From positions 1 through 40,636 of IMG/VR virus record IMGVR_UViG_3300047480_000890: a stretch of 40,636 nucleotides of DNA; one strand, given 5' to 3'. Under the pieces are notes generated by a model, which saw nothing but the letters and a program-made list of their open reading frames with translations, made no database searches and was not told the origin of the DNA. The first letter of the stretch is position 1, and each line of letters starts with the position of its first letter. This DNA is from a virus. Both the position numbers and the translations under genes were made by a program. This document shows positions 958 to 37,655 of the stretch, one piece after another.

Positions 958-1457
958 TGAAACTGTCAGAACGGCAAGAAAGTATATTATTATACTCTGT
1001 TGTTTTTGTTTTATTAACGGCTAACATTTACTTTGAACAATGGGGCCTGGCCTTTGCTCTTATGCTGATGATGTTTTTTGTTGAAATCGCACCGTTGTTT
1101 ACTCGTCGCAAGGTAGAAGAATTTAATTATACTAAGTTAGCAGCAGCACTGAATCAACATCGCAGTGACACAATTAAAGCAGAAAGAGCACAAACTCAAT
1201 CAAATCAAAGTCTGGCAGCATCACAGTCCCAAACTAAACAAGACACAAAAGACAATAAGAAATCTGAAGCAGCAGCATTGGCACTGGCAGTAGGTAAAAC
1301 TCTAGCCAAAAATGACAGAGTTAAAGCACTAGGTAAAATGGCTTTGAACACTGCAGCAGACAGAATTGAACAAGAAGTAAAAGAACAATTAAAGTCTGAC
1401 AAAAAATCAAAAGACGAAAATGAAGAAGAGTCAGAAGTTGACAAAGAATCAAAATAA
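957..1457 (+). CDS. Two-span membrane protein with long charged coiled tail, 166 aa
   Basis: Two hydrophobic segments at about residues 9-26 and 30-45 are followed by a roughly 115-residue, Ala/Gln/Lys/Glu-rich cytoplasmic-type tail that looks coiled-coil or disordered and ends in a very acidic-basic stretch. No enzyme motif is visible. It is coupled to the gene before it (TAATG). A late box follows in its 3' end and serves the tmRNA rather than this gene. Function unknown. Confidence 0.75.
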   Translation: MKLSERQESILLYSVVFVLLTANIYFEQWGLAFALMLMMFFVEIAPLFTRRKVEEFNYTKLAAALNQHRSDTIKAERAQTQSNQSLAASQSQTKQDTKDNKKSEAAALALAVGKTLAKNDRVKALGKMALNTAADRIEQEVKEQLKSDKKSKDENEEESEVDKESK

Positions 1458-1460
1458 ATA
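1453..1460 (+). promoter_or_regulatory. T4-type late promoter box for the tmRNA
   Basis: AATAAATA. With a start about 6 nt downstream, the precursor RNA would begin near 1466, leaving roughly 74 nt up to the CCA of the tmRNA acceptor piece, a normal acceptor-piece length. Confidence 0.55.
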
Positions 1461-1715
1461 TATACTGTAAGTTATTGCTGTATGAAGGAATAAGAACAAT
1501 TGACTGGACGCGGGGGGCAGTTCCCCGCCCGGTCCACCAGAAGTAATATTGGATAGCGATGTAGCCGTAAGGTCAAGAGATAACTTCAAAGATTCGCTTA
1601 TAAACTGTATTCCAGTATTACTCCTAATGGGCCGGAAATAGGTTCGACAGGCGATCTAGTATTTGCCCGGACAGCACGGTAGATGACGACCGTAAATCGC
1701 ATAAATCTAGTAAAT

Positions 1716-1805
1716 GCAACAGCATCTACAAAAGGTAGCTTCAAGTTCAGCGGAAAAGGCGTCAAGCTTGCTTCTGCACGCCGTGAAGCTGTAATGGCCT
1801 GATAG
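1716..1805 (+). other. tmRNA tag-peptide reading frame (28 codons)
   Basis: After TAAAT the resume codon is GCA. The frame runs 28 codons, starting ATASTKG and ending SARREAVMA, then TGA and an in-frame TAG, the tandem stop typical of tmRNA tags. Bacterial tags are usually 8-15 residues ending in ALAA or AVAA; this one is long and basic and ends AVMA. Starting one codon earlier (AAT) cannot be excluded. Confidence 0.75.
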
Positions 1806-1845
1806 CCATACCAGGGGCAGTTATGCCTTTTTACCCAAAATAACC

Positions 1846-1870
1846 AAAAAGGCCGCAAGGCCTTTTTGTT
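1846..1870 (+). terminator. Rho-independent terminator of the tmRNA
   Basis: Nine-bp stem AAAAAGGCC / GGCCTTTTT with GCAA tetraloop, directly after the tmRNA coding piece. Confidence 0.9.
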
Positions 1871-1921
1871 TGTCAACTTAACAGTGACATTGGCGTTAAA
1901 CATATATAAGGGTTAATGTTT

Positions 1922-2156: not shown

Positions 2157-3164
2157 ATGAAAAAACTATTACTGACACTACTGGCGGCCATTGCCGTTTC
2201 AGCACAAGCAGCAGACATCACTGGAGCAGGAGCAACATTTCCTTATCCCATTTATGCTAAATGGGCCGAAGCTTATCAAAAGCAAACCAGTGTTCAATTA
2301 AACTACCAAAGCATTGGCAGCAGTGGTGGTATCAAACAGATCAATGCCAAGACTGTGACTTTTGGAGCCACTGACGCTCCTGTTAAAGGCGAAGACCTGG
2401 ACAAGCTCAACCAAGTACAGTTTCCAGCAATTATCGGTGGCACAGTGCCAGTGGTTAACTTAGAAGGTTTTCGACCTGGCGAACTTAAAATTACAGGCAC
2501 TGTACTTGCTGAAGTATTCATGGGCGACATTCAAAAATGGAATGATCCAAAACTGCAACAGTTAAATCCCGGCAAAAAATTACCTGACATAAACATTACA
2601 GTTGTGCATCGTGCTGATGGTTCCGGCACAACTTTTAACTTTACTGACTACTTGTCATCAGCCAGCGAAGATTGGGCTAAAAAAGTAGGAAAAGGTGCAG
2701 CAGTAAAATGGCCAGCAGCTAGTTCAGTTGGCGGTAAAGGCAACGAAGGTGTTGCTGCTAATGTCAATAGAATCAAAGGCAGTATTGGTTATGTGGAATA
2801 TGCTTATGTAAAGAAAAACAACATGACTTTTATGCAGCTGCAAAACAAAACAGGTAACTTTGTCAGTCCCGACGACTTGACATTTGCTGCAGCAGCTGCT
2901 GGTGCTGACTGGTTCTCAGTTCCAGGCATGGGCATCAGTATTGTTAATCAACCAGGCAAGGACACTTGGCCAATTACCACAGCTAGTTTTATTGTCATGT
3001 ACAAAGATCCCAAAGATCCCACAACCAGCAAAGAAGTTATCAAGTTCTTTGACTGGGCATTTAAGAACGGTAAGAAAATGAGTGAGGATCTAGACTATGT
3101 GCATTTGCCAGAATCACTGCAAAATATGATTAGGCAAAAAGTTTGGAGCCAAATCAAGCACTAA
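2157..3164 (+). CDS. pstS: Phosphate ABC transporter substrate-binding protein PstS
   Basis: Periplasmic phosphate-binding component of the PstSCAB importer; with no pstCAB here, it would have to feed the host permease. A signal peptide (MKKLLLTLLAAIAVSAQA) is followed by hallmark PstS motifs: GAGATFPYPIY, IGSSGGIKQI, FGATDAPV, the anion-binding HRADGSGTTFNF (about 155-166) and GKGNEGVAANV. At 335 aa it is full length. AGGAG lies 11 nt upstream; the ATG at 2150 hits a stop after three codons. Phage pstS genes are known from T4-type cyanophages, where the host PhoB can induce them; the Pho-box-like repeats upstream suggest the same here. A late box follows the stop codon. Confidence 0.95.
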   Translation: MKKLLLTLLAAIAVSAQAADITGAGATFPYPIYAKWAEAYQKQTSVQLNYQSIGSSGGIKQINAKTVTFGATDAPVKGEDLDKLNQVQFPAIIGGTVPVVNLEGFRPGELKITGTVLAEVFMGDIQKWNDPKLQQLNPGKKLPDINITVVHRADGSGTTFNFTDYLSSASEDWAKKVGKGAAVKWPAASSVGGKGNEGVAANVNRIKGSIGYVEYAYVKKNNMTFMQLQNKTGNFVSPDDLTFAAAAAGADWFSVPGMGISIVNQPGKDTWPITTASFIVMYKDPKDPTTSKEVIKFFDWAFKNGKKMSEDLDYVHLPESLQNMIRQKVWSQIKH

Positions 3165-3657: not shown

Positions 3658-4011
3658 ATGAAATTCTATCAAGAAACTACAGACTACAAAGACGACATCG
3701 CAAACGGTGTGTACCTGCTGAACGACAGCAAGAGTCTTATGTATGCTTATGTGGCACCCAACACTAAAACTGTCAAAGAATTTAAAAATCCCATTAGGAT
3801 CGATATCCGTGGTAGGCAGTTTCGTGAAGTCGAAAACACTTTCAAATATACTATTCCAAATGAAGCCGTGAAAAACCCCCGTTGGGAAGTAAAAGGCAGC
3901 AAAGGCGATGTTTACATTGTTGAACAGAGTGAAAATGGTCTCAGCTGTAGCTGTGCAGGTTTTAAATTTCGTGGTAAGTGCAAGCATTTAGATAAAATTT
4001 TTGATAAGTAA
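3658..4011 (+). CDS. SWIM zinc-finger protein, 117 aa
   Basis: The C terminus carries a SWIM-type zinc finger: C97-x-C99-x8-C108-x-H110 (CSC...CKH). SWIM fingers bind DNA or proteins and occur in recombination factors and MuDR-type transposases. The N-terminal 90 residues are a small alpha/beta region without recognised motif. The gene is first behind an early-type promoter, so it may act early in infection, perhaps on DNA. Start chosen for GGGGTAAGA just upstream. Confidence 0.82.
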   Translation: MKFYQETTDYKDDIANGVYLLNDSKSLMYAYVAPNTKTVKEFKNPIRIDIRGRQFREVENTFKYTIPNEAVKNPRWEVKGSKGDVYIVEQSENGLSCSCAGFKFRGKCKHLDKIFDK

Positions 4012-4031
4012 ATTTATAAAGGACAAGAGCT

Positions 4032-4427
4032 ATGACGGTTGAAATTGTATTTCCACAATCAACAGAATCTTACGACGATCGTGTCACGCGATTGTCAAAT
4101 TTGAATCTAAGTACAAATATTTTGAATCACTGGGGACTTAATTCACTCAATGAATTACAACCATATTTGAATAATTATAACGATACTCTTATACAAATAG
4201 ATATGGAAAATGGTGCCACAGATAGTTTCAATGAATCTGGTAATTTAGTTAGAACATGGCCATCGGAATCGGCCAAAAACAGTGCAAATACACAAATTAA
4301 TGCTTATAAGTCTAATATAAGTGCTAATATATATTTTGCCAGTAACGGTGCTGTAATGGGTAAAATAACTCTAGTAGAATATTTAGATAACTTTTTGAAC
4401 AATTCAAGTGTAACTATCAGTCCTTGA
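4032..4427 (+). CDS. Hypothetical protein, 131 aa
   Basis: Asn/Ser-rich soluble protein beginning MTVEIVFPQSTESYDD, with no signal peptide, membrane helix or known motif. The ribosome-binding site is AGGACAAG. Its TGA stop lies inside the -35 box (TTGACA) of the ligase promoter. Codon use is more AT-rich than its neighbours. It may be a structural or accessory protein; unassigned. Confidence 0.7.
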   Translation: MTVEIVFPQSTESYDDRVTRLSNLNLSTNILNHWGLNSLNELQPYLNNYNDTLIQIDMENGATDSFNESGNLVRTWPSESAKNSANTQINAYKSNISANIYFASNGAVMGKITLVEYLDNFLNNSSVTISP

Positions 4428-4452
4428 CAAAAATGATAAAAGACCATATAAT
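4424..4452 (+). promoter_or_regulatory. Sigma70-type promoter for DNA ligase
   Basis: TTGACA, 17-nt spacer, TATAAT (a second overlapping TATAAT sits at 4452-4457). The ligase ATG is 30 nt downstream. Confidence 0.85.
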
Positions 4453-4482
4453 ATAATGTAATCAACTCAACAGTTAAATTGT

Positions 4483-5796
4483 ATGGATAAACCCTATCAA
4501 GTAATTGCCGATCTCGAGCGTCATGCCAGTCGCTTGAACAAAGAAGCAATCATTCTTGTTCAAGCTGAGGCCGGCAACAATGAATTTTTTGAAGGTTGCA
4601 GGCTAGCACTAGACAGCACTGTGACCTTTGGCCTTAAACAAATTCCCGAGAAAAAAGATGCGGACGGCCCTGGCCTATCTTGGGATAGTTTTACTGTCAT
4701 TATTACTGGCTTCGTTAATCGTGAAGTCACAGGCAACCTTGCTCGCGATACCGTTACCAAAATGATGCAGTCAGCTACCCGAGCTGAATGGAACAATTGG
4801 TATCGCCGTATTTTAATCAAAGACCTTCGTTGTGGTACTAGCGAAAAAACAATTAATAAAGTTGTAGAAAAGAAATGGCCCCAATATGCAGTTCCTATTT
4901 TTAGTTGCCAGCTTGCTCATGATAGTGCTAATCATGAAACCAAGGTTGCTGGACGAAAACTTATCGAAGTCAAACTCGATGGCGTTCGCGTTATTACTAT
5001 TGTTTATCCTGATGGCCGTGTTGACCAATTCAGTCGCAACGGTAAAGAGCTGGTAAACTTTGAACACATCAAACAACAGTTAAAAGAAACTGCAGCCGCA
5101 ATGACTGAACCTTGGGTATTGGACGGTGAAGTTATGAGCAGTAGCTTTCAAGACTTGATGACTCAGGTACATCGCAAAAGTGATGTAGCTGCAGGTGATG
5201 CTGTACTTAACCTGTTTGACTGGTTGCCGCTTGCACAGTTTGAACAGGGTGGTTGGGACAAGAGCCAACTAGAACGCAGTAAAGCATTAAAAATGTGGTA
5301 CGGCTTTTACAAAGATAAACTGCCCAATGTGCGTGTACTAGATTGGGAAGACATTGACCTAGATTCTAAGAATGGTCAAGCAAAGTTCAAAGAGATCAAT
5401 GCCAAAGCCATTGCGGGTGGCTATGAAGGCATCATGATCAAAGATCCCCAAGGTGCATATGAATGCAAACGGTCGGTTAATTGGCTGAAACTTAAACCTT
5501 TTATTGAAGTAAGTTTGGAGATCATCGATGTTGAAGAAGGCACTGGTAGAAACTTGGGAAGACTTGGGGCTTTGGTGGCTGCAGGGGTCGACGACGGAAG
5601 AACTATTCAAGTCAATGTTGGTAGTGGTCTTAGCGATAGTGATCGAATTGAGTTTTGGAGCAATCGCAGTGATCTCATTGGTCAAATAATTGAGGTTAGA
5701 GCAGATGCTGTTACACAAAATCAAGATGGCAGTTATAGCCTTCGTTTTCCGCGTTTCCTCAGATTCCGCGGGTTTGAAATTGGCGAGAAAATTTAA
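4483..5796 (+). CDS. 30: ATP-dependent DNA ligase (T4 gp30-like)
   Basis: Seals nicks in replicating phage DNA by lysine adenylylation, transfer of AMP to the 5' phosphate and phosphodiester formation. The nucleotidyltransferase motifs are in order: motif I EVKLDGVR with catalytic Lys164, SRNGKEL (Ia/III region), DGEVM, EGIMIKDP (IV) and WLKLKP (V), followed by an OB-fold domain with NLGRLGALVA and the terminal VRADAVTQ/SLRFPRFLRFR. At 437 aa it is a little shorter than T4 gp30 (487 aa). It has its own strong early-type promoter. The only clear replication or repair enzyme in this half of the window. Confidence 0.95.
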   Translation: MDKPYQVIADLERHASRLNKEAIILVQAEAGNNEFFEGCRLALDSTVTFGLKQIPEKKDADGPGLSWDSFTVIITGFVNREVTGNLARDTVTKMMQSATRAEWNNWYRRILIKDLRCGTSEKTINKVVEKKWPQYAVPIFSCQLAHDSANHETKVAGRKLIEVKLDGVRVITIVYPDGRVDQFSRNGKELVNFEHIKQQLKETAAAMTEPWVLDGEVMSSSFQDLMTQVHRKSDVAAGDAVLNLFDWLPLAQFEQGGWDKSQLERSKALKMWYGFYKDKLPNVRVLDWEDIDLDSKNGQAKFKEINAKAIAGGYEGIMIKDPQGAYECKRSVNWLKLKPFIEVSLEIIDVEEGTGRNLGRLGALVAAGVDDGRTIQVNVGSGLSDSDRIEFWSNRSDLIGQIIEVRADAVTQNQDGSYSLRFPRFLRFRGFEIGEKI

Positions 5797-6447: not shown

Positions 6448-6689
6448 ACAAACGAATTCAAGAACTTGCTGAACAGGCTGGTTTAGTTAAAATATTTGAT
6501 GAACATGCCAGTGAATATGGGAACGGTATGTTTGAAAATACTGCTTATCCTGAGTTAGAAAAATTCGCCAAGTTGATTGTCAAGGAATGCCTTGATCAAT
6601 GTTACTACCGTGGCATGAATGATGAACTGTATGCTGGCCAGCTGCGAGCTGCAGAATTTATTGAACAACATTTTGGAGTTGAAGAATGA
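6444..6689 (+). CDS. Array paralogue 1 (MNKRIQELAEQAG...FIEQHFGVEE), 81 aa
   Basis: First member of a family of 57-95 aa proteins in this array. It has three shared blocks: an N-terminal helix MN(K/E)RI.ELA.QAG, a central KFAKLIVKEC helix, and the C-terminal EQHFGVEE; the parts between vary in length and sequence. The GGAG that encodes the end of the protein is the ribosome-binding site of the next gene. Such small repeated ORFs occur in other environmental T4-type phages; their role is unknown. Confidence 0.78.
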   Translation: MNKRIQELAEQAGLVKIFDEHASEYGNGMFENTAYPELEKFAKLIVKECLDQCYYRGMNDELYAGQLRAAEFIEQHFGVEE

Positions 6690-6886
6690 ATGAACGAATT
6701 CGAGAACTGGCTAATCAGGCTGGGTTTCATGTTGCGCCGTATGAAGGCATCAATGACAACAATATGATTAAAAAGTTCGCTGAGCTGATTGTAGGGGAAT
6801 GTACTGACAGGATTCGCTTCTGTATCAAGAACGATATTGATTTTATTGCCGAACATGTTGAAAAACATTTTGGAGTTGAAGAATGA
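6686..6886 (+). CDS. Array paralogue 2, 66 aa
   Basis: Shares MNERIRELANQAG, KKFAELIVGEC and VEKHFGVEE with its neighbours. The first 36 nt match the next gene almost exactly (ATGAATGAACGAATTCGAGA...), so this pair looks like a recent duplication. Start and stop overlap the neighbours as ATGA. Unknown function; the two helices joined by a variable loop could form a small dimer. Confidence 0.78.
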   Translation: MNERIRELANQAGFHVAPYEGINDNNMIKKFAELIVGECTDRIRFCIKNDIDFIAEHVEKHFGVEE

Positions 6887-7116
6887 ATGAACGAATTCGA
6901 GAACTGGCTAATCAGGCTGGTGCGGAAGTAAAGATTATTCATGGTGATATGCTTTATATTTCTAAAGCAGATTTAGACTTGGAAAAGTTCGCCGAGTTGA
7001 TTGTTCGGAATTGTATTGTAGACTTTTACAGAAATTACCTAGATACCACTAGTGATGAAGATATCACCAAGCAGGTTGATAGATATGTAAAACAACAATT
7101 TGGAGTTGAAGAATGA
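6883..7116 (+). CDS. Array paralogue 3, 77 aa
   Basis: Same N-terminal block as paralogue 2 (MNERIRELANQAG), then an inserted variable stretch, LEKFAELIVRNC, a second variable segment and KQQFGVEE. At DNA level the block AAGTTCGCCGAGTTGATTG is nearly identical to that in five other members, which points to shared recent descent or gene conversion. ATGA overlaps on both sides. Confidence 0.78.
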   Translation: MNERIRELANQAGAEVKIIHGDMLYISKADLDLEKFAELIVRNCIVDFYRNYLDTTSDEDITKQVDRYVKQQFGVEE

Positions 7117-7346
7117 TTTACTGCACTTCCTGTAAACATCATGTTAGGTATTACCCTAATGGAATAGTTTGGTGTGGGAACCCAAAGAACGGTATTGATT
7201 TGTCTGATGGAAGTGCTAAACTCCATTATGCCAGTTTAAATAGAAAAGATGAAACTGGCTGTGGTGAGAAAGCGTTATGGTGGGAAGAAAAGGTGGAGAC
7301 AAAACCAACCAGTTGGTGGGAAATGTTTTGGAGTATGAAGAAATGA
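7113..7346 (+). CDS. Cysteine-rich zinc-binding-like protein in the array, 77 aa
   Basis: Not a member of the paralogue family. It has C4-x2-C7-x-HH near the N terminus, then WCGNP and a further Cys (TGCGE), the spacing of a small zinc ribbon, and a Trp-rich C terminus (WWEEK, SWWEMFW). It is placed between paralogues and ends in DNA resembling their shared tail (GGAGTATGAAGAAATGA), so the array seems to host foreign genes between coupling sequences. Function unknown. Confidence 0.75.
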   Translation: MIYCTSCKHHVRYYPNGIVWCGNPKNGIDLSDGSAKLHYASLNRKDETGCGEKALWWEEKVETKPTSWWEMFWSMKK

Positions 7347-7618
7347 ACGAACGATGGATTGGTATTGCAATGAAGGCCCACGCCCAGACCGGCAATGAGT
7401 TTGACCTGAATCATAAACCACTGGATGCTTTCTTAGCAAAGTTCGCCGAGTTGATTGTGCAGGAGTGTGCTCAATTACTATTTGCCGAATCAGAAAGACT
7501 TTACTCATATTCAAGTGAATGTGACAATATGCATGATAGTGATGAAGCCGAAGTTTGTGCAGAAAAGTGTATTGATAACATTAAAATGATTGAACAATAT
7601 TTCGGAGTTGAAGAATGA
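7343..7618 (+). CDS. Array paralogue 4, 91 aa
   Basis: Begins MNERWIGIAMKAHAQTG, carries AKFAELIVQECAQ in the middle and ends IEQYFGVEE. The segment between the last two blocks is longer than in other members and acidic with several Cys. The ATG at 7343, overlapping the previous stop, is chosen over an upstream in-frame ATG at 7277, which lies inside the preceding gene and would spoil the family N terminus. Confidence 0.77.
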   Translation: MNERWIGIAMKAHAQTGNEFDLNHKPLDAFLAKFAELIVQECAQLLFAESERLYSYSSECDNMHDSDEAEVCAEKCIDNIKMIEQYFGVEE

Positions 7619-7833
7619 AAGTCTATCTACTTTATTACGATACAGATTACGGTAGTCGTGAAGAATGGAATACATTCTACACCCCATGTGAAGTGTTTGA
7701 TTCCGAACAAAAGCGTCAGGCTCGCATTGATTTTATTAAAGCACAAAGCGAAGATTACACAGACGATGATTGTTTCCACAAAGTGGATACAGTGATTATG
7801 ACAGACGCTATGGCACAGGAGTGGGAAGAATGA
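7615..7833 (+). CDS. Small unrelated protein inserted in the array, 72 aa
   Basis: The product, MKVYLLYYDTDYGSREEWNTFY..., is a soluble, strongly acidic alpha/beta protein with no match to the paralogue family. It uses the GGAG of the preceding paralogue as ribosome-binding site and itself ends GTGGGAAGAATGA, so translation passes on by the same stop-start overlap. Conserved small proteins of this kind are common in T4-type phages; no function can be given. Confidence 0.73.
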   Translation: MKVYLLYYDTDYGSREEWNTFYTPCEVFDSEQKRQARIDFIKAQSEDYTDDDCFHKVDTVIMTDAMAQEWEE

Positions 7834-8117
7834 ACGAACGAATTAAAGAACTTGCTAAACAGGCTGAATTTTATGCTTGGGAAGAACTTGCTAAAGTTCC
7901 GGGCCCGGCGGAAATGGCCATTAGTAAAAGAGTATTTGACGGATCATTTAGGCTAAAGTTCGCCGAGTTGATTGTTCGGGAAATGTGTGGCTTAATGGAA
8001 CAAGCCGAAGATGATGCCTATCATTGTTTTGATCCCAGTGAGCGACCAACTGAACGCATTGAATGGTTGCGAGATTGGCAAGAAAGATTTACGAAACATT
8101 TCGGAGTTGAAGAATGA
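7830..8117 (+). CDS. Array paralogue 5, 95 aa
   Basis: MNERIKELAKQA at the start, LKFAELIVREMCG in the centre, and TKHFGVEE at the end; the longest family member, with an insertion between the first two blocks. The start at 7830 is set by the ATGA overlap and the family N terminus; the longer in-frame version from 7770 lies in the preceding gene. Confidence 0.77.
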   Translation: MNERIKELAKQAEFYAWEELAKVPGPAEMAISKRVFDGSFRLKFAELIVREMCGLMEQAEDDAYHCFDPSERPTERIEWLRDWQERFTKHFGVEE

Positions 8118-8293
8118 ACGACCGTATGTGGGAAATTGCTGAAGCGGCTAAAGATCAAGGTCCTAACTTTCATTACTACGACCCTGTGTTCTTGATTGAG
8201 TACACTAGATTAGTTGTATTAGAATGTTCCTTACAATGTAATCATAACGAAGATATGGATTTGATTGAAAAACATTTCGGAGTTGAAGAATGA
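8114..8293 (+). CDS. Array paralogue 6, short and divergent, 59 aa
   Basis: A 59-residue member: MNDRMWEIAEAAKDQG, a degenerate central block (YTRLVVLECSL instead of KFAELIVREC) and the intact end LIEKHFGVEE. Stop-start overlaps on both sides and the family signature at both ends make it a real gene despite its size. The eroded centre suggests it is drifting, while the tail, needed as the next ribosome-binding site, is kept. Confidence 0.75.
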   Translation: MNDRMWEIAEAAKDQGPNFHYYDPVFLIEYTRLVVLECSLQCNHNEDMDLIEKHFGVEE

Positions 8294-8538
8294 ACGAACG
8301 AATTAAAGAATTTGAGAAACAGGCCACTACTGTTGTGGAAGGATGGTCAGATGAAAATGGTACAACAAGGTACTATGAATTCAACAAAGAAAAGTTTGCT
8401 GAGTTGATTGTTCGGGAATGTATGGATTTAGTAAAAGGGTTCACGGTGGAAGACGAAGTAGGATGTTTGGATTACATTGAATTCCTGGAGTACGAAGCAA
8501 GTGAAGTTTTGAAAAAGCATTTCGGAGTTGAAGAATGA
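8290..8538 (+). CDS. Array paralogue 7, 82 aa
   Basis: MNERIKEFEKQATTVVEG, EKFAELIVRECMDL and LKKHFGVEE in the expected order. It is flanked by ATGA overlaps. The central DNA block (AAGTTTGCTGAGTTGATTG) differs from the array consensus only at synonymous sites. Function unknown. Confidence 0.78.
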   Translation: MNERIKEFEKQATTVVEGWSDENGTTRYYEFNKEKFAELIVRECMDLVKGFTVEDEVGCLDYIEFLEYEASEVLKKHFGVEE

Positions 8539-8666
8539 AAGACCCAAAGTTTGGTTATAGTTGGATATGGTTGCTACCATTCTACTACATTGCTCAACTT
8601 TACTTTTATATTCTTGAAAAGTGGTTCCCTAAAACATACAAGAAACATTTCGGAGTTGAAGAATGA
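8535..8666 (+). CDS. Chimeric 43-aa membrane peptide ending in the array tail
   Basis: The first 34 residues (MKDPKFGYSWIWLLPFYYIA...) form a hydrophobic single-span segment unrelated to the paralogues, yet the peptide ends KKHFGVEE exactly like them. It looks like a membrane-peptide gene fused in frame to the shared 3' tail, which supplies the ribosome-binding site for the gene at 8663. The ATGA overlaps support expression. Confidence 0.7.
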   Translation: MKDPKFGYSWIWLLPFYYIAQLYFYILEKWFPKTYKKHFGVEE

Positions 8667-8944
8667 GATCAAAATTTGATATAGTTGATCGCAATGTAGA
8701 ACACAATATTGTTTTCATTGAGGATGACTGTGACGCTAATGGCGATGCTATAATGACAGTTACCAATGATGCCGAAAATGTGCTCGAATACTTTCAAAGA
8801 CTTTACGGCAAAAATGTTCGCATTGTATACCGTGACACTGAAATGGAGTGGTGGGAAATTGTAACCAATCACAAAACTTGGATGGGCTCTATCATTAGCT
8901 TCAAACCCTGGCATGGCCTTGCTTGGGATATTCTTAAAAAGTAA
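8663..8944 (+). CDS. Small hypothetical protein, 93 aa
   Basis: Soluble acidic N-terminal half (MRSKFDIVDRNVEHNIVFIEDDCD...) and Trp-rich C-terminal half (MEWWEIVTNHKTWMGSI...WHGLAWDILKK). It uses the GGAG of the chimeric peptide before it. It ends the first part of the array; its TAA lies in a terminator hairpin followed by a new promoter. No family recognised. Confidence 0.75.
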   Translation: MRSKFDIVDRNVEHNIVFIEDDCDANGDAIMTVTNDAENVLEYFQRLYGKNVRIVYRDTEMEWWEIVTNHKTWMGSIISFKPWHGLAWDILKK

Positions 8945-8963
8945 TACTCAAGTACTACTTTTT
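8936..8963 (+). terminator. Terminator hairpin enclosing a stop codon
   Basis: AAAAAGTA / TACTTTTT stem with an inner short stem and TCAA loop, followed by a T-run. The TAA stop of the gene at 8663 lies inside. A promoter follows within 10 nt. Confidence 0.72.
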
Positions 8964-8969
8964 TTTGGT

Positions 8970-8998
8970 TTGACAATAATTCCTGTTTTTGCTATAAT
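8970..8998 (+). promoter_or_regulatory. Strong sigma70-type promoter
   Basis: TTGACA, exactly 17 nt, TATAAT with extended TGC before the -10. It drives the second part of the array from 9029, whose ATG has AAGGGGC upstream. Confidence 0.88.
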
Positions 8999-9028
8999 AT
9001 ACACATAGTAAGAAATAAGGGGCAGACG

Positions 9029-9247
9029 ATGACAACTGTAGCACAAATGATCGAATGGATGAAGACACTCCCCCAGGACGCAGAAGTCGAGTGTGGTGTC
9101 GAGGAGAGCAAGGGCTACGACACTTGGATGGCTATGAAGCCTGTGGATATCTCTGATTGCTATGTTATTGACTACACTAGCGAAGAAGACCGCGCCAAGT
9201 ATCCTGCTATGGCTGGCAAGACCATTGTTATGATCCGAGGAGAATGA
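9029..9247 (+). CDS. Small conserved phage protein, 72 aa
   Basis: MTTVAQMIEWMKTLPQDAEVECGVEESKG...: a short N-terminal helix followed by strands. The opening resembles the widespread phage type in which V..MIEWLKTLPQDA precedes a small beta domain. It is the first gene behind a strong promoter; GAGGAGA at its end forms the ribosome-binding site of the next gene. Base composition is more GC-rich than the array. Function unknown. Confidence 0.8.
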   Translation: MTTVAQMIEWMKTLPQDAEVECGVEESKGYDTWMAMKPVDISDCYVIDYTSEEDRAKYPAMAGKTIVMIRGE

Positions 9248-9248
9248 G

Positions 9249-9443
9249 ATGAACACAAAAGAAATGATCGAAGAGGTCATGACCGAGTATTACAACGGAG
9301 GGTTCATCGACTCCTCCGGAGCAAGAGAGAACTTGGAAGAATTGGTCAAGAAGGTTGTGAAAGAATGTTGCCATAAGTTGGAGAATGATGGCATGGTTGA
9401 AGTGGCTATGGAAATGAAAGAACATTTCGGAGTTAAAGAATGA
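9249..9443 (+). CDS. Divergent array paralogue 8, 64 aa
   Basis: MNTKEMIEEVMTEYYNGG lacks the usual N-terminal block, but LEELVKKVVKECCHKL matches the central block in layout and MKEHFGVKE the C terminus. So only the 3' part is clearly related. GAGGAGAATGAG precedes the ATG and the stop overlaps the next gene. Confidence 0.75.
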   Translation: MNTKEMIEEVMTEYYNGGFIDSSGARENLEELVKKVVKECCHKLENDGMVEVAMEMKEHFGVKE

Positions 9444-9667
9444 ACGAACGAATTGAAAAACTTGCTGAACAGGCTGCAGCCTATGCTTGGGAACAAATAG
9501 ACCTGGGTGCTAACTTTGACGAACAACCTCGATACTTTGCAGAAAAGTTCGCCGAGTTGATTGTGGCAGAATGTGCTAATGAACTGCTAAAATGGCGACA
9601 AGAACCTTTCCCAATGGATGCTGAATCGGCTGCACGAATCATCAAACAACACTTTGGAGTTAAATGA
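9440..9667 (+). CDS. Array paralogue 9, 75 aa
   Basis: MNERIEKLAEQAAAYAWEQ, AEKFAELIVAEC and IIKQHFGVK, a complete member whose tail has lost the final Glu-Glu (GGAGTTAAATGATGA). The AAYAWE segment also occurs in paralogue 5, which suggests exchange between members. Confidence 0.78.
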   Translation: MNERIEKLAEQAAAYAWEQIDLGANFDEQPRYFAEKFAELIVAECANELLKWRQEPFPMDAESAARIIKQHFGVK

Positions 9668-11008: not shown

Positions 11009-11881
11009 ATGAAATTTTCTGTTATCAGCGACCTACACTTAGAGTTTGCAGACCTTGAACTACCTGGCGGAGAAGTTTTAATTCTCTCGGGCGATGTCTG
11101 TGAAGCCAAACATGTTAAAGCCGAATATGATGTTAACAACATCATGAATCCCGGCGGGCCTGCCAACGGCAATTTCAAACGGTCGGATCGTTATACTCGT
11201 TTCTTTCACGAAGAATGCAGCAAGTATGATCGTGTTGTTTATGTTATGGGCAATCACGAGCACTATGGTGGTAGGTTTGATAAGACCCGTGACTATCTCG
11301 CAAGTGTGCTGCCTAAGAACATTGAGCTGTTGGAAAAGTCATATACCGAAATTGACAATGTCGTTGTAGTAGGTGCCACACTGTGGACTGATTTGAATAA
11401 AAATGATCCAATTACTGCTTGGACCTTAAAATCCAGCATGAATGATTATCGTGTAATTCAAAACTTCTACAAGGAAAAAAACTTGTATTACAAGTTAACT
11501 CCTGAACAAACCAAAGCAGATCACATGGCGGCTCGTCAGTACATCAGTGACATTGCTGATAAATTTGCAGACAGGCCCGTGGTTGTGGTAACGCATCACA
11601 GTCCCAGCAGACTCAGCACTAAACCAAAGTATCAAGATGACTATCATATGAACGGTGGTTACAGCAGTAGTTTGGAAGACTTGATTGAGCGTCATCCAAA
11701 CATTATCGCCTGGCATCACGGACATACACATGATATATTTAAATATCAAATCGGTAATACTTGGATTATGTGTAATCCAAGAGGCTATGTCGGCTACGAA
11801 GAACGGGCAAAATCATTTAAGGTGCAAGGATACTCTGTAGTTAACGGAAAAGTAAAGTTTAGTGAATCTGAGTGGGTTTAA
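11009..11881 (+). CDS. Calcineurin-like metallophosphoesterase, 290 aa
   Basis: Di-metal phosphoesterase with the full motif set: D8-x-H10 (SDLHLEF), SGD (D29), GNHEH (82-85), THHSPS and GHTH near the C terminus (HHGHTHDIF). The fold is shared by phosphoprotein, nucleotide and nucleic-acid phosphoesterases; the substrate cannot be read from sequence. T4-type phages carry such enzymes as nucleotidases or regulatory phosphatases. It stands alone behind an early-type promoter, with a convergent endonuclease gene overlapping its 3' end by 23 nt. Confidence 0.92.
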   Translation: MKFSVISDLHLEFADLELPGGEVLILSGDVCEAKHVKAEYDVNNIMNPGGPANGNFKRSDRYTRFFHEECSKYDRVVYVMGNHEHYGGRFDKTRDYLASVLPKNIELLEKSYTEIDNVVVVGATLWTDLNKNDPITAWTLKSSMNDYRVIQNFYKEKNLYYKLTPEQTKADHMAARQYISDIADKFADRPVVVVTHHSPSRLSTKPKYQDDYHMNGGYSSSLEDLIERHPNIIAWHHGHTHDIFKYQIGNTWIMCNPRGYVGYEERAKSFKVQGYSVVNGKVKFSESEWV

Positions 11882-12557
11882 CTAATCTGCCTTTAACCCA
11901 ATCTAAGCCAGGGCTATTAACTGCCATTTTGTTTTGACTCCCATTGTTCCACCAATGGGATCCTTTTGCAGAATGTCTACCTTTGCCACCCGCAAATGCT
12001 TTAGAAGTTAGTCTACCAAATTGAAAATTTTCTGGGATATTTGTCGGTAAAACCATTATTTCTTTTGTACCGTTGTTGACCCAAATTTTTTCTTTTTGTA
12101 TTTTTGCTCCTAATATTGCACCAATGTTATTAAATTTTAGTCTTCCTAACACAAATGATGCATCCGGTGGTTCAGGCCTAAAAGTTTGTTTTGTTCCATT
12201 ATTCCACCATCTACAAGTCTTGCCGTATTCTGACAATTTTGGAAGCCATTTCTTAAACCCTTCAGTTGCCGAAGTATCTCCACCGTCATTTCCAGTCTCT
12301 GGTTTTAAATTGGCCCATTCTTTAGATTCTACTATATTATTTTTTATACTAAATTCGACGGCGGCCTTTTTACATAAGTCCTCATCAGTAAAAAATCCAA
12401 GAATTTCTGTTGAAATGTCTTCACCGTATTTTTTTAAATGGCGTAACCAAACTGTTCCGGAACCTTTATAGACGTATGGATCTCTGGTGGTTTTACCAAA
12501 ATATTTTAACTTAGTAAGATTATGTGTTTTAATATACAAGGTAGTTGGTTTAAACAT
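11859..12557 (-). CDS. GIY-YIG homing endonuclease with repeated DNA-binding modules
   Basis: N-terminal GIY-YIG nuclease core in its phage variant (LYIKTHN...KLKYFGKTT...YKGSG, then HLKKYG and the E of the DEDL/AAVEF helices). The C-terminal two thirds hold repeats of a WWNNGTK...P....F..GRL module (four copies, about residues 120-232), a layout typical of DNA-binding modules of phage homing endonucleases. It is on the strand opposite its neighbours, lies between the phosphoesterase and tRNA-Arg, and has no good ribosome-binding site. The start MFKPTT at 12557 matches where such proteins begin; an in-frame extension reaches 12584. Confidence 0.78.
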   Translation of the reverse strand: MFKPTTLYIKTHNLTKLKYFGKTTRDPYVYKGSGTVWLRHLKKYGEDISTEILGFFTDEDLCKKAAVEFSIKNNIVESKEWANLKPETGNDGGDTSATEGFKKWLPKLSEYGKTCRWWNNGTKQTFRPEPPDASFVLGRLKFNNIGAILGAKIQKEKIWVNNGTKEIMVLPTNIPENFQFGRLTSKAFAGGKGRHSAKGSHWWNNGSQNKMAVNSPGLDWVKGRLVKPTQIH

Positions 12558-12564
12558 ATAAATA
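12557..12564 (+). promoter_or_regulatory. Perfect T4 late box TATAAATA
   Basis: Exact TATAAATA on the + strand, 74 nt upstream of the tRNA. It overlaps the start of the minus-strand endonuclease, so it may be chance or may drive the tRNA late. Confidence 0.4.
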
Positions 12565-12600
12565 TTTAGCATGGACATACACACAAATAACCAAAATTCT

Positions 12601-12637: not shown

Positions 12638-12712
12638 CTGGCGTTAGTATAATGGATAATACAATCGGCTTCTACCCGATGAATGTGGGTTCGATTCCTG
12701 CACGCCGGACCA
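12638..12712 (+). tRNA. tRNA-Arg(UCU)
   Basis: Full cloverleaf: acceptor CTGGCGT/ACGCCGG, D arm GTAT/ATAC, anticodon stem ATCGG/CCGAT with loop CTTCTAC (anticodon TCT), T arm with loop TTCGATT, discriminator A and encoded CCA. It reads AGA codons, which are frequent in the phage genes here but typically rare in betaproteobacteria. A hairpin CTGATAT-TTTT-ATATCAG (12719-12736) follows and may terminate transcription or guide 3' processing. Confidence 0.95.
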
Positions 12713-29735: not shown

Positions 29736-29956
29736 TGCCCGAAGTAGAAGTGTGGACCACAGTTGATGTAGACTTAGATAAATTTGACACCGATGACCTT
29801 GTTGAAGAGCTAGAGCGTCGTGGCACAGGACTAGAAGTTGCATTTCCGGCAAGCACAGACTTGCTGACAGCGATTTATCTCAAACGCAGAACAGGACAAG
29901 ATTACCAACGCGAACTAGATGAACTCATTTATCTAGCTCTTGGAAAAATTGTATGA
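29735..29956 (+). CDS. Small acidic phage protein, 73 aa
   Basis: MPEVEVWTTVDVDLDKFDTDDLVEELERRG...: begins with a strand and an acidic helix that recur in phage proteins (V.V.V..DL..FD..DLVEEL..RG), then a helix with LKRRTGQDYQRELDELIYLALGK. Its TGA overlaps ATGATATTT, which looks like the old start of the cytidylyltransferase gene now 770 nt downstream. Function unknown. Confidence 0.77.
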   Translation: MPEVEVWTTVDVDLDKFDTDDLVEELERRGTGLEVAFPASTDLLTAIYLKRRTGQDYQRELDELIYLALGKIV

Positions 29957-29973
29957 TATTTAATTACTTTTGA
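29953..29973 (+). pseudogene. Remnant start of the cytidylyltransferase gene
   Basis: ATGATATT here matches the second ATG of the intact gene (ATGATATT at 30728) and sits at the expected ATGA overlap with the gene before. The frame ends after six codons. It seems to have been cut off by insertion of the endonuclease gene at 30015. Short, so tentative. Confidence 0.4.
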
Positions 29974-29989
29974 CTTTCTACTTGTACGA

Positions 29990-30014: not shown

Positions 30015-30728
30015 ATGAGTAAAAAACTTACAACCGAAGAATTTAAAAAAAGAGCAATAGAGATACATAACGGATTTTATTCATATGAAAATACCATTTA
30101 CAAAAGTATGAAAGAAAAAGTATCGATAAGTTGTCCGAAACATAGAGAATTTTGGCAAAATCCGGCTGACCATTTAATGAATCACGGTTGCCCGAAATGT
30201 AAGGCAGATAAAGCGTCGTGTGATATAAATGACATTAAGCAATTATTTGAGCGAATCCATAAAGAAAAATATTCTTATGATTTTTCAACTTATAAACGAA
30301 ACAGCATAAAAATGAAAATGCTTTGTCCGCAACACGGAGAATTTTGGCAAAAACCCGAACTACATAAAAATGGGTCAGGGTGTAAAAAATGCACCGCTTC
30401 TGGCGGGCCAGGCAAATATTGTGAATCTATTTTTTTAAAAAAACCTGAATTAAAATATAAGCAAGGAACATTATATTTTATTCAATTAACGGATTCTAAC
30501 GGTACAATATTTTTTAAAATTGGCATTACAATATCAATGAAAAAACGATTTTATAATTTCATAAAAAATCATAACGGTCATATTGTATGGACTTATAATG
30601 ATACTTTATATAAATGTTTTGAAAAAGAACAAAAGTTATTAATCGAAAATAAAGAATTTAAATATGTCCCCCTTAATTTAACTGTAGGTGGAAAACACGA
30701 ATGTTTTTTAAAGGAAATTCATATATGA
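30015..30728 (+). CDS. Probable homing endonuclease: zinc modules plus GIY-YIG/T5orf172-like domain, 237 aa
   Basis: Two repeats of the type ISCPKHREFWQNPADHL..HGCPKC and MLCPQHGEFWQKPELH..GSGCKKC (residues about 36-65 and 95-125) are Cys/His modules common in free-standing phage endonucleases. The C-terminal domain GTLYFIQLTDSNGTIFFKIGIT.SMKKRF resembles the GIY-YIG-related T5orf172 nuclease fold. The gene is AT-rich, has its own late box, and separates a gene from what looks like its old neighbour. The start MSKKLTTEEF at 30015 is preferred to 29970 because of AGAGG. Confidence 0.75.
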   Translation: MSKKLTTEEFKKRAIEIHNGFYSYENTIYKSMKEKVSISCPKHREFWQNPADHLMNHGCPKCKADKASCDINDIKQLFERIHKEKYSYDFSTYKRNSIKMKMLCPQHGEFWQKPELHKNGSGCKKCTASGGPGKYCESIFLKKPELKYKQGTLYFIQLTDSNGTIFFKIGITISMKKRFYNFIKNHNGHIVWTYNDTLYKCFEKEQKLLIENKEFKYVPLNLTVGGKHECFLKEIHI

Positions 30729-31192
30729 TGATATTCGAACGAATTCACGAATTAAAACGACAAGGAAAAAAAATCGGTATTACTTTTTCAACCTTTGACC
30801 TTGGTCCACATGCAGGGCATATCGCGATGCTTTCTGAGGCTAAAAATCACTGTGACTATTTGATTGCAGGACTGCAAACCGATCCAACCATTGACAGACC
30901 GGACAGCAAGAACCCGCCAGTTCAAAGCATTGTTGAACGACAAATTCAATTAAGTGCTACTAGATATGTAGATGAAATTGTTGTTTACCAAACTGAAAAA
31001 GATTTGGAAGACATTTTACTGACACTGCCCATTGATGTTAGAATTTTGGGTGTTGAATATGCAGACAAACCATTTACTGGTAGAGATATCTGTATTGACA
31101 GAGGCATTGAACTTGTGTATAATAAGCGTGATCACAGTTTTAGCAGCAGCAGTCTGCGTAAACGAGTAGCGGAGGCACAGACAAGAAAATGA
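30725..31192 (+). CDS. Nucleotidyltransferase, glycerol-3-phosphate cytidylyltransferase-like, 155 aa
   Basis: A small HIGH-superfamily nucleotidyltransferase: GITFSTFDLGPHAGHIAMLSEA carries the HxGH signature (HAGH, about residues 29-32), and SFSSSSLRKRV near the end matches the second nucleotide-binding motif (ISSTxLR). TagD-type enzymes make CDP-glycerol; related ones make CDP-ethanolamine or ADP-heptose, so the substrate is open. The ATG at 30725 overlaps the endonuclease stop (ATGA); 30728 is an equal alternative. The Tyr/Arg core and length (about 130-155) are normal. Confidence 0.88.
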   Translation: MMIFERIHELKRQGKKIGITFSTFDLGPHAGHIAMLSEAKNHCDYLIAGLQTDPTIDRPDSKNPPVQSIVERQIQLSATRYVDEIVVYQTEKDLEDILLTLPIDVRILGVEYADKPFTGRDICIDRGIELVYNKRDHSFSSSSLRKRVAEAQTRK

Positions 31193-31482
31193 ACAACGGC
31201 GGTAAAGGTTCGGCACCAAGACCATTCAGTGTAGACCATAATACTTTCAGCAATAATTGGGACGCTGTTTTTGGTAAGAAGAAACAGACAGTTGAAAAAC
31301 CTAACTGTTACTGTTATAATTGTCTTAAGGATTATATAGAGCCAGGACAGATTTTTCCCTATGTAACATCAAGAATGATTGTTTGCCCTGAATGTGGTAA
31401 TAAGCGATGCCCCCATGCTACAAATCATAACTTGCCCTGCACTAACAGCAATGAGCCAGGTCAACCAGGAAGTAGATACTAA
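31189..31482 (+). CDS. Zinc-ribbon phage protein, 97 aa
   Basis: Two CxxC pairs (CYNC at about 43-46 and CPECGNKRCPHA at about 66-77) form a zinc ribbon, followed by NHNLPCTNSNEPGQPGSRY. The C-terminal CP.CGNKRCPHAT.HNL.CT.SNEPGQPGS pattern is well conserved in environmental phages. Probably a small DNA/RNA- or protein-binding adaptor. Its stop overlaps the ATG of the truncated clamp-loader start at 31482. Confidence 0.83.
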   Translation: MNNGGKGSAPRPFSVDHNTFSNNWDAVFGKKKQTVEKPNCYCYNCLKDYIEPGQIFPYVTSRMIVCPECGNKRCPHATNHNLPCTNSNEPGQPGSRY

Positions 31483-31595
31483 TGAAAGAACTTTGGACAG
31501 AAAAATGCTCTCTGTGCATAAATAATTTATGCGGAGAATTTTATGTCCTACAAAAAACCCCAGGCAGAAAAGATAGAAACATCCGAATTGTGTAA
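31482..31595 (+). pseudogene. Orphaned 5' end of the clamp-loader gene (MKELWTE)
   Basis: The frame begins MKELWTEK, the same first seven residues as the intact clamp loader at 32213 (MKELWTERYRP), then runs into unrelated sequence and stops after 37 codons. It sits at the natural TAATG junction with the gene before. The two copies differ at synonymous sites (GAACTTTGGACAGAA against GAGTTATGGACGGAA). It is best read as the original start cut off by the endonuclease insertion. Confidence 0.7.
31517..31524 (+). promoter_or_regulatory. T4-type late box of the inserted endonuclease gene
   Basis: CATAAATA within a GCATAAATAATTTATGC inverted repeat, 19 nt before the endonuclease start, which has GCGGAG upstream. 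Confidence 0.65.
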
Positions 31596-32241
31596 TTATG
31601 GCTGCGGCACCAAAGCCAACTATAAGTTTTGGAATGGAAAAATTTGTTGTTCAAACAGTCACAATTCATGTCGCGGAAAACGTGATGCTTTTTCTAAATT
31701 AGATCACAGTCAACGAACTGCTAAATCATTAGCAACTCGTGTAGAAAAAGGCATTACTAAAAGTTCACAGATAAAAGGCGGGGAGACCAGACGGAATAAT
31801 GGGCATTACGAAAAACTAGCAGGAGTAATGCAAGAACACTGGGCTAACAATCCGTGGAATAACAATGCACAATGCCCACTGATAAACTATAAAACTACCG
31901 CAGTAAATTATCAAGGATCATATGAATACGAGTTCCTTGAAGAGTTAGAATTATTGTATGGAATAGACTGGATTGTACAAAACGTACGCCGAGGGCCATC
32001 TATATGGTACATAGATCCAATTAGTAAAAATAAAAAGCTTTATATGAGCGATTTTATTATAGATAATACTGTATACGAGATAAAATCGACTTGGTCTTGG
32101 GATAAAAACGGTAATGATCAAAACCTCCGAGAAAAGAATAAAGCAAAGTTGACAGAATGCGTAGCGCAAGGCTATAATGTAGTATTAGTATTAAATCATA
32201 AAAGGATAGAGTATGAAAGAGTTATGGACGGAACGGTATAG
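31543..32241 (+). CDS. Probable PD-(D/E)XK-type homing endonuclease, 232 aa
   Basis: N-terminal zinc finger (CNYGCGTKANYKFWNGKICCSNSHNSCRGK; four or more Cys) and a C-terminal domain with YQGSYEYEFLEELELLYG, YMSDFIIDNTVYEIKSTWSW and KAKL..CVAQGYNVVLVLN. The D...E-x-K set (SDFII, YEIKS) is the core of very-short-patch/EDxHD-like nucleases used by some phage homing enzymes. It has its own late box and ribosome-binding site. Its last 29 nt overlap the clamp-loader start and recode it. Insertion next to a conserved replication gene is typical of such elements. Confidence 0.8.
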   Translation: MSYKKPQAEKIETSELCNYGCGTKANYKFWNGKICCSNSHNSCRGKRDAFSKLDHSQRTAKSLATRVEKGITKSSQIKGGETRRNNGHYEKLAGVMQEHWANNPWNNNAQCPLINYKTTAVNYQGSYEYEFLEELELLYGIDWIVQNVRRGPSIWYIDPISKNKKLYMSDFIIDNTVYEIKSTWSWDKNGNDQNLREKNKAKLTECVAQGYNVVLVLNHKRIEYERVMDGTV

Positions 32242-33136
32242 ACCCAAAACAGTAGACGAATATGTGTTTACTGACCAAGCAGTTAAAGAACAAGTAGAAG
32301 GATGGATTGAAGAAGGTGCTTGCCCGCATCTACTGCTGCATGGACCAGCAGGCACCGGCAAGACTACACTGGCCAAAGTATTGGTCAATCAACTGGGCAT
32401 TGATAACTTTGACTTTCTACAAGTCAACGCCAGTCGTGACAACGGTGTAGACTTTCTTAAAACTAAAATCGAAGGCTTTGTCAGCACACTGCCATTTGGG
32501 CACTTAAAGATTGTGCTGTTGGACGAAGCAGACTACTTAAGTCCCAACGCACAGGGTCTACTGCGTGGCTTAATGGAAACTTATCAAGCACAGGCTAGAT
32601 TTATTTTAACTTGTAACTTGGTGCATAAGATCATTACTCCCATTAAAAGTCGTTGTGTGGATCTGCAGATTAACAAAACAGATCAAACAGAATTTACTGC
32701 AAGAGCAGCCACAGTGTTAGTTACTGAAGAAGTTGAATTTGATTTAGATACACTAGACAGCTATGTCAAAGCCACTTACCCTGACCTTCGTAATTGTTTA
32801 AAGTTAATCCAGCAAAACAGCAGTACTGGTAAACTGCTGAGTGCTAGAGAAGAACAAAGCAGTACAGCAGACTACAGACTGACAATGGTAGAGCTGTTCA
32901 AACAGCGTAAAATCCGCGAAGCTAGAAAACTACTGTGTGAACAAGCTCGCCCTGAAGAAATGGAAGAAATCTTTCGTTGGATGTATGATAACTTAGACTT
33001 GTGGAGTAAGACTGACGAAGGTCGTGACGAAGCTATTATGATTATCCGCAAGGGCATTGTGTGGCACAGTCAGTGCGGAGATCCTGAAATCAACTTAAGT
33101 GCTACTATCACTGAGCTAGCAGGAATCGACAAATAA
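32213..33136 (+). CDS. 44: Sliding-clamp loader small subunit (gp44/RFC-like), 307 aa
   Basis: AAA+ ATPase that opens and loads the sliding clamp with gp62. Walker A GPAGTGKT (44-51), Walker B IVLLDEADYLS, sensor 1 FILTCN and the SRC motif (KSRCVDLQ) are intact; the C-terminal helical collar follows. Length is close to T4 gp44 (319 aa). The N terminus MKELWTERYRPKTVDEYVF is typical. The start lies within the endonuclease gene before it, 29 nt from that gene's end; upstream is the duplicated start described at 31482. Confidence 0.94.
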   Translation: MKELWTERYRPKTVDEYVFTDQAVKEQVEGWIEEGACPHLLLHGPAGTGKTTLAKVLVNQLGIDNFDFLQVNASRDNGVDFLKTKIEGFVSTLPFGHLKIVLLDEADYLSPNAQGLLRGLMETYQAQARFILTCNLVHKIITPIKSRCVDLQINKTDQTEFTARAATVLVTEEVEFDLDTLDSYVKATYPDLRNCLKLIQQNSSTGKLLSAREEQSSTADYRLTMVELFKQRKIREARKLLCEQARPEEMEEIFRWMYDNLDLWSKTDEGRDEAIMIIRKGIVWHSQCGDPEINLSATITELAGIDK

Positions 33137-36698: not shown

Positions 36699-37655
36699 AT
36701 GAAACAATTTTTAGCACTACTAGCACTGGTACCTGCCTTGGCTTTTGCTTGGCAGCCCACAAAACCCATTACTGTTATTTTTCCAAACGGGCCCGGCGCC
36801 GGCAATGAAATCTCTTTTAGAATTGTAGCTGATCAAATTGAACGCACTACAAATGTAAAATTTGTCAGTGAATACAAGCCTGGTGCAGACGGCAATTTAG
36901 CTGGTAATTATTTTAATACAGCGACACCAGACGGACACACAGTTATGGTGCCAGCATGTCAAAGCAACTGGGTTACTCCTGATATTTGGTACAGTAAAAT
37001 GGTCAAGTATGATGCACAACAATGGGAACCTGTGGCCAATATAGCAAGAAGTCCACTGGCGTTTTGGGCCAATCCAAAAAGCACTGTGAACACTCCTGAA
37101 GACCTAATTAAACTAATCAAAGAAAAAAAGCGCCCAGTAAATATTGCCATCGGTGGTGGTGGCCATAAGTTAGCAGTAGAATATCTAACCACACACCTTA
37201 ATGTGCCTGGGGGCGACTTAGTTGCTACCCCTATGTACAAAGGACCGGCTCAAGCACTGTTAGATGTAATGGGAGGATCTGCAGAATTTGGCGTAACTCC
37301 TGTAGCAGTGGGCTGGCCGCATGTGCAAGCGGGGAAACTAAAATTAATTGGCATTGCAGATACTGTAAAACTACCCGGCTTAGAACAATACCCTTTAATG
37401 ACCTCAGTGGTACCTAACCTCAGTATTCACGGTTGTTGGAATTTAGTATTGCCTCCAAATACTTCCCAGGAAATTCAAACATGGTATGCAAATAATTTTG
37501 TTCCTGTTATAAGAAACAAAGTTTCAGCTGAAAAATTTCGAGACAATATGATGTATATAACTAATAGTGAGCATTCTCCACAGGGTGTAAGAGCTAGTAT
37601 GTATAGACTAAGACAACAGTGGCAACCTATTGCTCGTAGAATTACTCCCGAATGA
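36699..37655 (+). CDS. Tripartite tricarboxylate transporter substrate-binding protein (TctC/Bug family)
   Basis: Periplasmic binding protein that delivers carboxylates (citrate, aromatic or amino acids) to a TctAB-type permease. Signal peptide MKQFLALLALVPALAFA, then WQPTKPITVIFPNGPGAGNEISFR, the family's first ligand-binding strand and loop (W.P.KPI.....P.GPG...D..R), VNIAIGGGGHK, FGVTPVAVGWPHVQAGKLKLIGIAD. At 318 aa it is full length. The Bug family is strongly expanded in Betaproteobacteria, so the gene points to such a host. Phage examples are unusual. Overlaps the next gene by 4 nt. Confidence 0.93.
   Translation: MKQFLALLALVPALAFAWQPTKPITVIFPNGPGAGNEISFRIVADQIERTTNVKFVSEYKPGADGNLAGNYFNTATPDGHTVMVPACQSNWVTPDIWYSKMVKYDAQQWEPVANIARSPLAFWANPKSTVNTPEDLIKLIKEKKRPVNIAIGGGGHKLAVEYLTTHLNVPGGDLVATPMYKGPAQALLDVMGGSAEFGVTPVAVGWPHVQAGKLKLIGIADTVKLPGLEQYPLMTSVVPNLSIHGCWNLVLPPNTSQEIQTWYANNFVPVIRNKVSAEKFRDNMMYITNSEHSPQGVRASMYRLRQQWQPIARRITPE

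Follow-up and report, generated by a model that had tools for sequence, protein, structure and literature searches.

Mobile endonuclease ORFs with a replacement C-terminus have been described in fungal mitochondria, namely in atp6 of Allomyces and in atp6, atp9, cox2 and nad3 of Glomus (PMC3630166), and these are the closest in design to the phage cassettes described here, which are their mirror image. In both, an endonuclease ORF interrupts a gene and supplies a foreign copy of the part that was severed, and the displaced native part is a dead fragment that is closest to the relatives. However, the fungal ORFs replace the 3′ end and are read in phase with the gene, whereas the phage cassettes have no replacement 3′ end, but carry a 5′ end that has a start codon and a ribosome-binding site of its own, and encode nucleases of other families. 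The seg and mob genes of phage T4 (PMC2988022) likewise have no intron or intein, are present or absent among relatives and lie near replication genes, and the hairpin with a late-promoter motif before our nuclease resembles that of I-TevI (PMC2988022). The T4 seg and mob genes, however, sit between genes and cut far off, whereas the present cassette lies within the split coding sequence, which it repairs. Intragenic insertion of a nuclease without intron or intein is also seen in the ShiLan element (PMC11855218), in which a phage methylase conceals an out-of-frame HNH nuclease and the host frame stays open through the insert; the phage gene studied here is instead restarted after it. Synthetic Cleave-and-Rescue (home-and-rescue) drives combine a nuclease with a recoded, cleavage-resistant copy of the targeted segment of an essential gene (PMC7951863). 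These are engineered with Cas9, whereas the phage cassettes are natural, replace the 5′ segment alone and have a resistance that we infer. Within an open-access library of the literature, no account was found of a phage endonuclease that brings a replacement 5′ end.

The window analysed, i.e. the whole 40,636-nucleotide stretch of the IMG/VR virus record IMGVR_UViG_3300047480_000890, contains a gp44 gene, identified as the clamp loader by PHROG 168 (E 5e-75), the start of which had been proposed from the letters alone to have been duplicated and recoded by insertion of a homing endonuclease. A degenerate pattern for MKELWTE, ATGAARGARYTNTGGACNGA, matched the window exactly twice, both times on the + strand (31482 and 32213), and matched none of 100 shuffles; the positions given by the sequence-only reading were exact. 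The first copy lies at a TAATG junction, where the stop codon TAA of a zinc-ribbon gene (31480–31482) overlaps the orphan ATG, and the second is the opening of the 307-aa gp44 frame, within the last 29 nt of the endonuclease ORF (31543–32241). The orphan frame runs for 37 codons. Within codons 1–7 the copies differ synonymously (GAA/GAG, CTT/TTA and ACA/ACG), and at codon 8 they differ in the amino acid, K versus R. The context of the Shine–Dalgarno-like AAAAGGA before the second copy is similar in two other occupied loci, L004 and L096. As 6-of-9 residue matches by themselves are no rarity when proteins are screened loosely, the weight of the gp44 duplication comes from its position, its DNA identity to empty alleles and its recurrence; a genome-wide screen for duplicated starts at 5-of-9 residues was too noisy, with 598 matches upstream versus 559 downstream. 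The features of both cassettes in the window are collected in Table 1.

Table 1. Features of the nucleotidyltransferase and gp44 cassettes (window coordinates)
Feature	Position	Strand	Basis
Orphan native nucleotidyltransferase start ATGATATTTAAT, internal deletion, then left half-site remnant TTTGAC...	29953..29983	+	L001 and five other occupied loci
HEG1, free-standing endonuclease with DUF723/DUF4379-like zinc fingers and T5orf172 GIY-YIG-like domain	30015..30728	+	PHROG 681
Replacement of first ~36 nucleotidyltransferase codons, FDLGPHAGH replacing FDLLHAGH	30728..30836	+	Mosaic identity to L001
Nucleotidyltransferase gene (CTP_transf_like), working form	30728..31192	+	Pfam PF01467, E 2e-8
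Zinc-ribbon-like gene, 3′ end normally abutting gp44	31189..31482	+	ORF; adjacency in empty L001, L002, L006 and L011
Orphan native gp44 start (left half), MKELWTEK then foreign sequence	31482..31506	+	22 nt identical to L001; remnants in other occupied loci
Leader hairpin just upstream of endonuclease start codon, containing ATAAATA (31518–31524)	31511..31537	+	Fold -10.9 kcal/mol, z -3.1
Endonuclease gene, free-standing, encoding a Cys-rich N-terminal region, a helical linker and a PD-(D/E)XK-like nuclease domain at the C-terminus	31543..32241	+	Family alignment, AlphaFold2 model
AAAAGGA, Shine–Dalgarno-like, for replacement gp44 start, within endonuclease ORF	32200..32206	+	Sequence
Replacement (recoded) gp44 codons 1–9, right end of cassette	32213..32239	+	Codon comparison with L001
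gp44 clamp-loader gene, working form	32213..33136	+	PHROG 168

Comparison with empty, i.e. endonuclease-free, alleles distinguishes the native copy from the foreign one. In the IMG/VR contigs of loci L001 and L002, gp44 is 98% identical to that of the window and the zinc-ribbon gene is joined directly to it (...GGAAGTAGATACTAATGAAAGAACTTTGGACAGAAACATACAGACCC). The direct succession of zinc-ribbon gene and clamp-loader start that had been predicted for relatives without the endonuclease was found, with MKELWTE(T/K)YRP, in L001, L002, L006 and L011, and none of about 90 endonuclease-free gp44 loci had a second start or a start remnant at the gene boundary, so that neither of the two outcomes named beforehand as refuting the proposal was observed. 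The window orphan is identical with the native L001 start at 22 of 22 nt. The working start, by comparison, differs from L001 at codons 3, 4, 6, 8 and 9 (five of the first nine), and near identity is regained in codons 10–24, where a single codon differs. Of the replacement block, GAG TTA TGG ACG is common to L004, and the closest other gp44 starts are those of the HEG-free loci L059 and L060, at 24 of 27 nt. As the orphan equals the L001 native start and the working start is divergent, the former is the old native start and the latter the newcomer, in agreement with the earlier proposal that the element brings its own gp44 start, located inside the 3′ end of the endonuclease gene. The same comparison puts the insertion point between native codons 8 and 9. 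Extra DNA before gp44 in L007 was also considered as a cassette, but was rejected because it consists of two ordinary small genes.

A scan with a nuclease alignment placed the same family in eight distinct loci (the window, L004, L082, L087, L088, L091, L095 and L096), and in all eight the nuclease lies directly upstream of gp44, a left start remnant LW(T/V/I)E stands just before it and a complete gp44 start overlaps its 3′ end by 4–47 nt; seven of these orphans were detected by an automatic motif screen and that of L095 (LWIE) by eye. A wider scan with the eight-member alignment, for which expectations were set down beforehand, added six full-length members (L264, L265, L267, L268, L271 and L274), every one of which has gp44 directly downstream, an ATAAATA and a non-canonical working site. 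Their orphans fitted the strict pattern in four cases and in all six if one substitution was allowed (TGG to TGC in L267, GAA to CAA in L271). The insertion splits the same short motif exactly in all full-length members, and the orphan ATG has been lost in about half of the occupied gp44 loci. Two decayed copies were also found: L280 retains the orphan, the nuclease C-terminus and the working start, and L284 is without its left side. The more distant relatives L283, L285 and L286 had no gp44 match nearby. The family was absent from 50,697 phage records, where the sole match had 18% coverage, and from GTDB genomes, so that no isolate is known; the source phages of the cassettes are uncultured.

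The cassette is present or absent at a fixed site in a manner that does not follow the gp44 tree. In a tree of 47 sequences, the window groups with the empty L001 and L002, and L004 with the empty L003, and the eight occupied loci need six gains or losses, at least four of which are forced by supported branches. The nuclease gene has a dN/dS of about 0.11, indicating purifying selection and thus a gene kept as a protein, a value that rests on the window/L082 pair, as synonymous sites between the window and L004 are saturated.

The endonuclease ORF is complete, with 232 aa in its own frame outside any intron or intein. Annotation from sequence is weak (phrog_15137, E 1e-5; Pfam DUF7487 below cut-off) and Foldseek gave no match below 1e-3 for the AlphaFold2 model (pLDDT 82.7), the predicted C-terminal domain of which nevertheless resembles TnsA (Z 8.7), Vsr (5.8) and I-Bth0305I (5.2), Z values under about 9 being moderate support. 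The candidate residues E128, D170, E179 and K181 are invariant in the eight-member family alignment and provide the acidic pair and E/Q-x-K of the PD-(D/E)XK fold, so that there is moderate support for the C-terminal domain as a nuclease of this type. It would thus share its predicted catalytic fold with I-Bth0305I, of the PD-(D/E)XK, EDxHD, Vsr-like homing endonucleases, although sequence identity is low and TnsA scores higher. The N-terminal Cys-rich region, left uncovered by the structure matches, is probably zinc-binding.

If the replacement start serves to prevent recutting, its sequence at the site should be altered, and the motif LW[TV]EKYRP was indeed non-canonical in the working copy of 13 of 14 occupied loci, as against 21 of 88 empty gp44 loci (Fisher p 1e-6, which overstates independence, since loci were treated as independent but cassettes share ancestry). 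The 88 empty loci are what remained of 90 (23/90 before) once two mis-assigned duplicate contigs had been taken out by hand. The decayed L280 and L284 have canonical motifs at the site (n=2), as expected if alteration is demanded by an active nuclease only. The earlier claim that the copies differ at synonymous positions holds for codons 1–7 of the window, but is too narrow, as an amino acid change at the putative site is usual too. Nor does it fit L091, where the copies agree over their first 20 nt and differ at the centre of the site (Y to W). L096, in turn, keeps the canonical peptide with purely synonymous changes. Together, L091 and L096 indicate that recoding of the left half as a means of resistance is not universal. 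The replacement start is probably cut-resistant.

The same architecture also occurs 1.2 kb upstream in the window, where HEG1, a nuclease of DUF723/T5orf172 type (PHROG 681, E 4e-39; PHROG 559, E 3e-17; Pfam domains below their cut-offs), lies in a nucleotidyltransferase gene. The upstream remnant consists of ATGATATTTAAT and TTTGACTTTCTACTT, i.e. a left half-site with its interior deleted. Identity of the working gene to L001 per 15-codon block is 0.56, 0.62 and 0.78 and then 0.84–1.0 with one 0.78, whereas L001 and L004 share 0.91 and 0.84 in the first two blocks, and from this mosaic profile the working start in the window is foreign. The HEG1 arrangement was found in six distinct loci (the window, L183, L184/185, L186/187, L188, on the same contigs as L108/L109, and L120), and the region of the FD-x-x-HAG catalytic motif was altered (WD or LGPH) in all six compared with 6 of 77 empty loci (p 2e-6, subject to the same shared ancestry). 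In L123, of which L148 is a relative, an unrelated GIY-YIG nuclease splits the nucleotidyltransferase gene after codon 21; a native-like 63-nt orphan remains and the working start is divergent, the orphan matching natives at up to 48 of 63 nt and its own working copy at 43 of 63. The empty L110 has the altered first 30 codons of the occupied L120 with 98–100% DNA identity (4001–4100 in each), between flanks of about 70–90% identity, and is a resistant-looking empty allele that may have arisen by cassette loss or conversion. T5orf172-type nucleases also occur in the isolated phages D181, phiAC-1, PA-SR01, XaC1 and VSt472; no orphan start was found in the three of these covered (D181, phiAC-1 and VSt472), so the arrangement is not general for the T5orf172-type superfamily.

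We consider it highly probable that a mobile cassette with a free-standing homing endonuclease has entered gp44 between codons 8 and 9 and brings a replacement start. This reading is directly supported by the fixed insertion place, the empty alleles, the patchy distribution, the native orphan, the foreign start and the reappearance of the design at a second gene, where the nucleases are unrelated. The cassette would comprise a late-promoter-like hairpin leader, the nuclease gene, a ribosome-binding site and replacement gp44 codons 1–9 overlapping the nuclease 3′ end. Its nuclease would cut cassette-free gp44 at the DNA for LW(T/V)EK-YRP, and repair from a cassette-bearing genome would copy the cassette into the cut gene, leaving the old left half of the start behind as the orphan; gp44 would then be initiated at the cassette's start, the altered sequence of which would block recutting of the rejoined site. 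Cleavage, cut position and resistance are all points that we infer from the pattern of sequences. The original idea of an endonuclease entering gp44 with the gene restored has largely held up, and extends beyond one site to three nuclease families and two genes.

An ordinary intergenic free-standing homing endonuclease that cuts elsewhere, the replacement start being hitch-hiking donor DNA without protective effect, would agree with the T4 seg and mob nucleases, whose cut sites lie hundreds to thousands of bp away from the nuclease genes (PMC2988022), and co-conversion of flanks would import donor sequence, as the similarity of the replacement block to the HEG-free L059/L060 starts could suggest. 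We nevertheless think it unlikely, given the exactly split motif, the excess of non-canonical working sites over empty alleles in two unrelated cassettes and the canonical sites of the decayed copies. Very unlikely, in our view, is a target-site duplication at insertion with later divergence of the copies: the insert is flanked by two copies and those of L091 share their first 20 nt, but in the window it is the dead copy, not the live one, that equals the empty relatives, about 36 codons of the working nucleotidyltransferase copy are foreign, the L123 orphan matches natives at least as well as it does the working copy of L123, and recoded codons are common to the window and L004. Finally, a group I intron (or intein) with its nuclease, in which the orphan would serve as exon 1 and gp44 would be restored by splicing, would explain the interruption of a conserved motif, as orphan and downstream codons would give MKELWTEK-YRP, yet it is scarcely credible, because the second start already opens a complete, in-frame gp44, so that splicing is unneeded, and the orphan ATG is so often gone. 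The window and ten relatives had no Rfam intron match at the gathering threshold, and a group I intron-encoded endonuclease was rejected, as catalytic intron RNA was not found around the ORF.

The leader of the cassette may bear on its expression. In the window and in L004 the nuclease start follows an ATAAATA-containing hairpin, and the leader of L088 folds stably as well. Of 16 cassettes, 15 have ATAAATA in the 70 nt before the nuclease start, compared with 2.4% of random stretches, and in the HEG1 cassette of the window it lies at 29991. The late promoter used by T4 nucleases lies inside hairpins of this kind, where I-TevI binds an operator resembling its site and so represses itself (PMC2988022). 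The distance from the orphan half-site to ATAAATA is 26–27 nt in five of eight gp44 cassettes, and that to ATAAATA or GTAAATA is 23–26 nt in all six HEG1 cassettes, whereas sequence upstream of the half-site erodes. That the orphan half-site might serve as an operator for nuclease self-repression is a testable idea and not a result, since a fixed insertion site would give the fixed spacing too. A broader view, in which such cassettes form a natural and recurrent home-and-rescue system, unrelated nucleases targeting near-start motifs and carrying a resistant start while the orphan acts as an operator limiting nuclease expression, is possible, but we hold it to be doubtful.

These cassettes indicate that a replication gene can harbour a selfish nuclease in its coding sequence with no need of splicing, through a near-start cut combined with a replacement start, and they would be a natural counterpart of engineered rescue gene drives, with the resistant-looking empty allele L110 and the dead element L280 available for study. 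In addition, the arrangement predicts homing sites from sequence alone, and annotators should be aware that a short orphan ORF ahead of a phage endonuclease may be a gene start that was displaced.

Several further observations were made in the same material. The gp44 of L092 has an intein-like insertion after KVVLLDE (around 2170–2400), and a tblastn gap at around 4000–4600 suggests a similar insertion in L268, where one gp44 gene may host an intein and a start-replacing cassette together. L004 and L005 are one occupied gp44 region that appears twice, in opposite orientation, on the 117-kb contig IMGVR_UViG_3300032288_004815 (85122–96036 and 21631–32545), probably an assembly artefact or an inverted repeat. 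In the window, a further probable homing endonuclease, GIY-YIG and SegA-like by eye with no Pfam match, lies at 11859–12584 (− strand); its 3′ end overlaps that of a phosphoesterase-like gene (11009–11881), possibly as a 3′-end counterpart. The window also contains a permuted tmRNA gene at 1445–1893 (+ strand; Rfam RF04321, 86 bits, with an ARAGORN tmRNA call too) and a tRNA-Arg(TCT) at 12638–12712. Several small ORFs with near-identical (R)MNERI(R/K)EL starts at 6680–9470 are likely a local gene-family expansion, and PstS-like phosphate-binding (2157–3164) and Bug/TctC-like solute-binding (36699–37655) genes, both recognized by eye, are probable host-derived metabolic genes.
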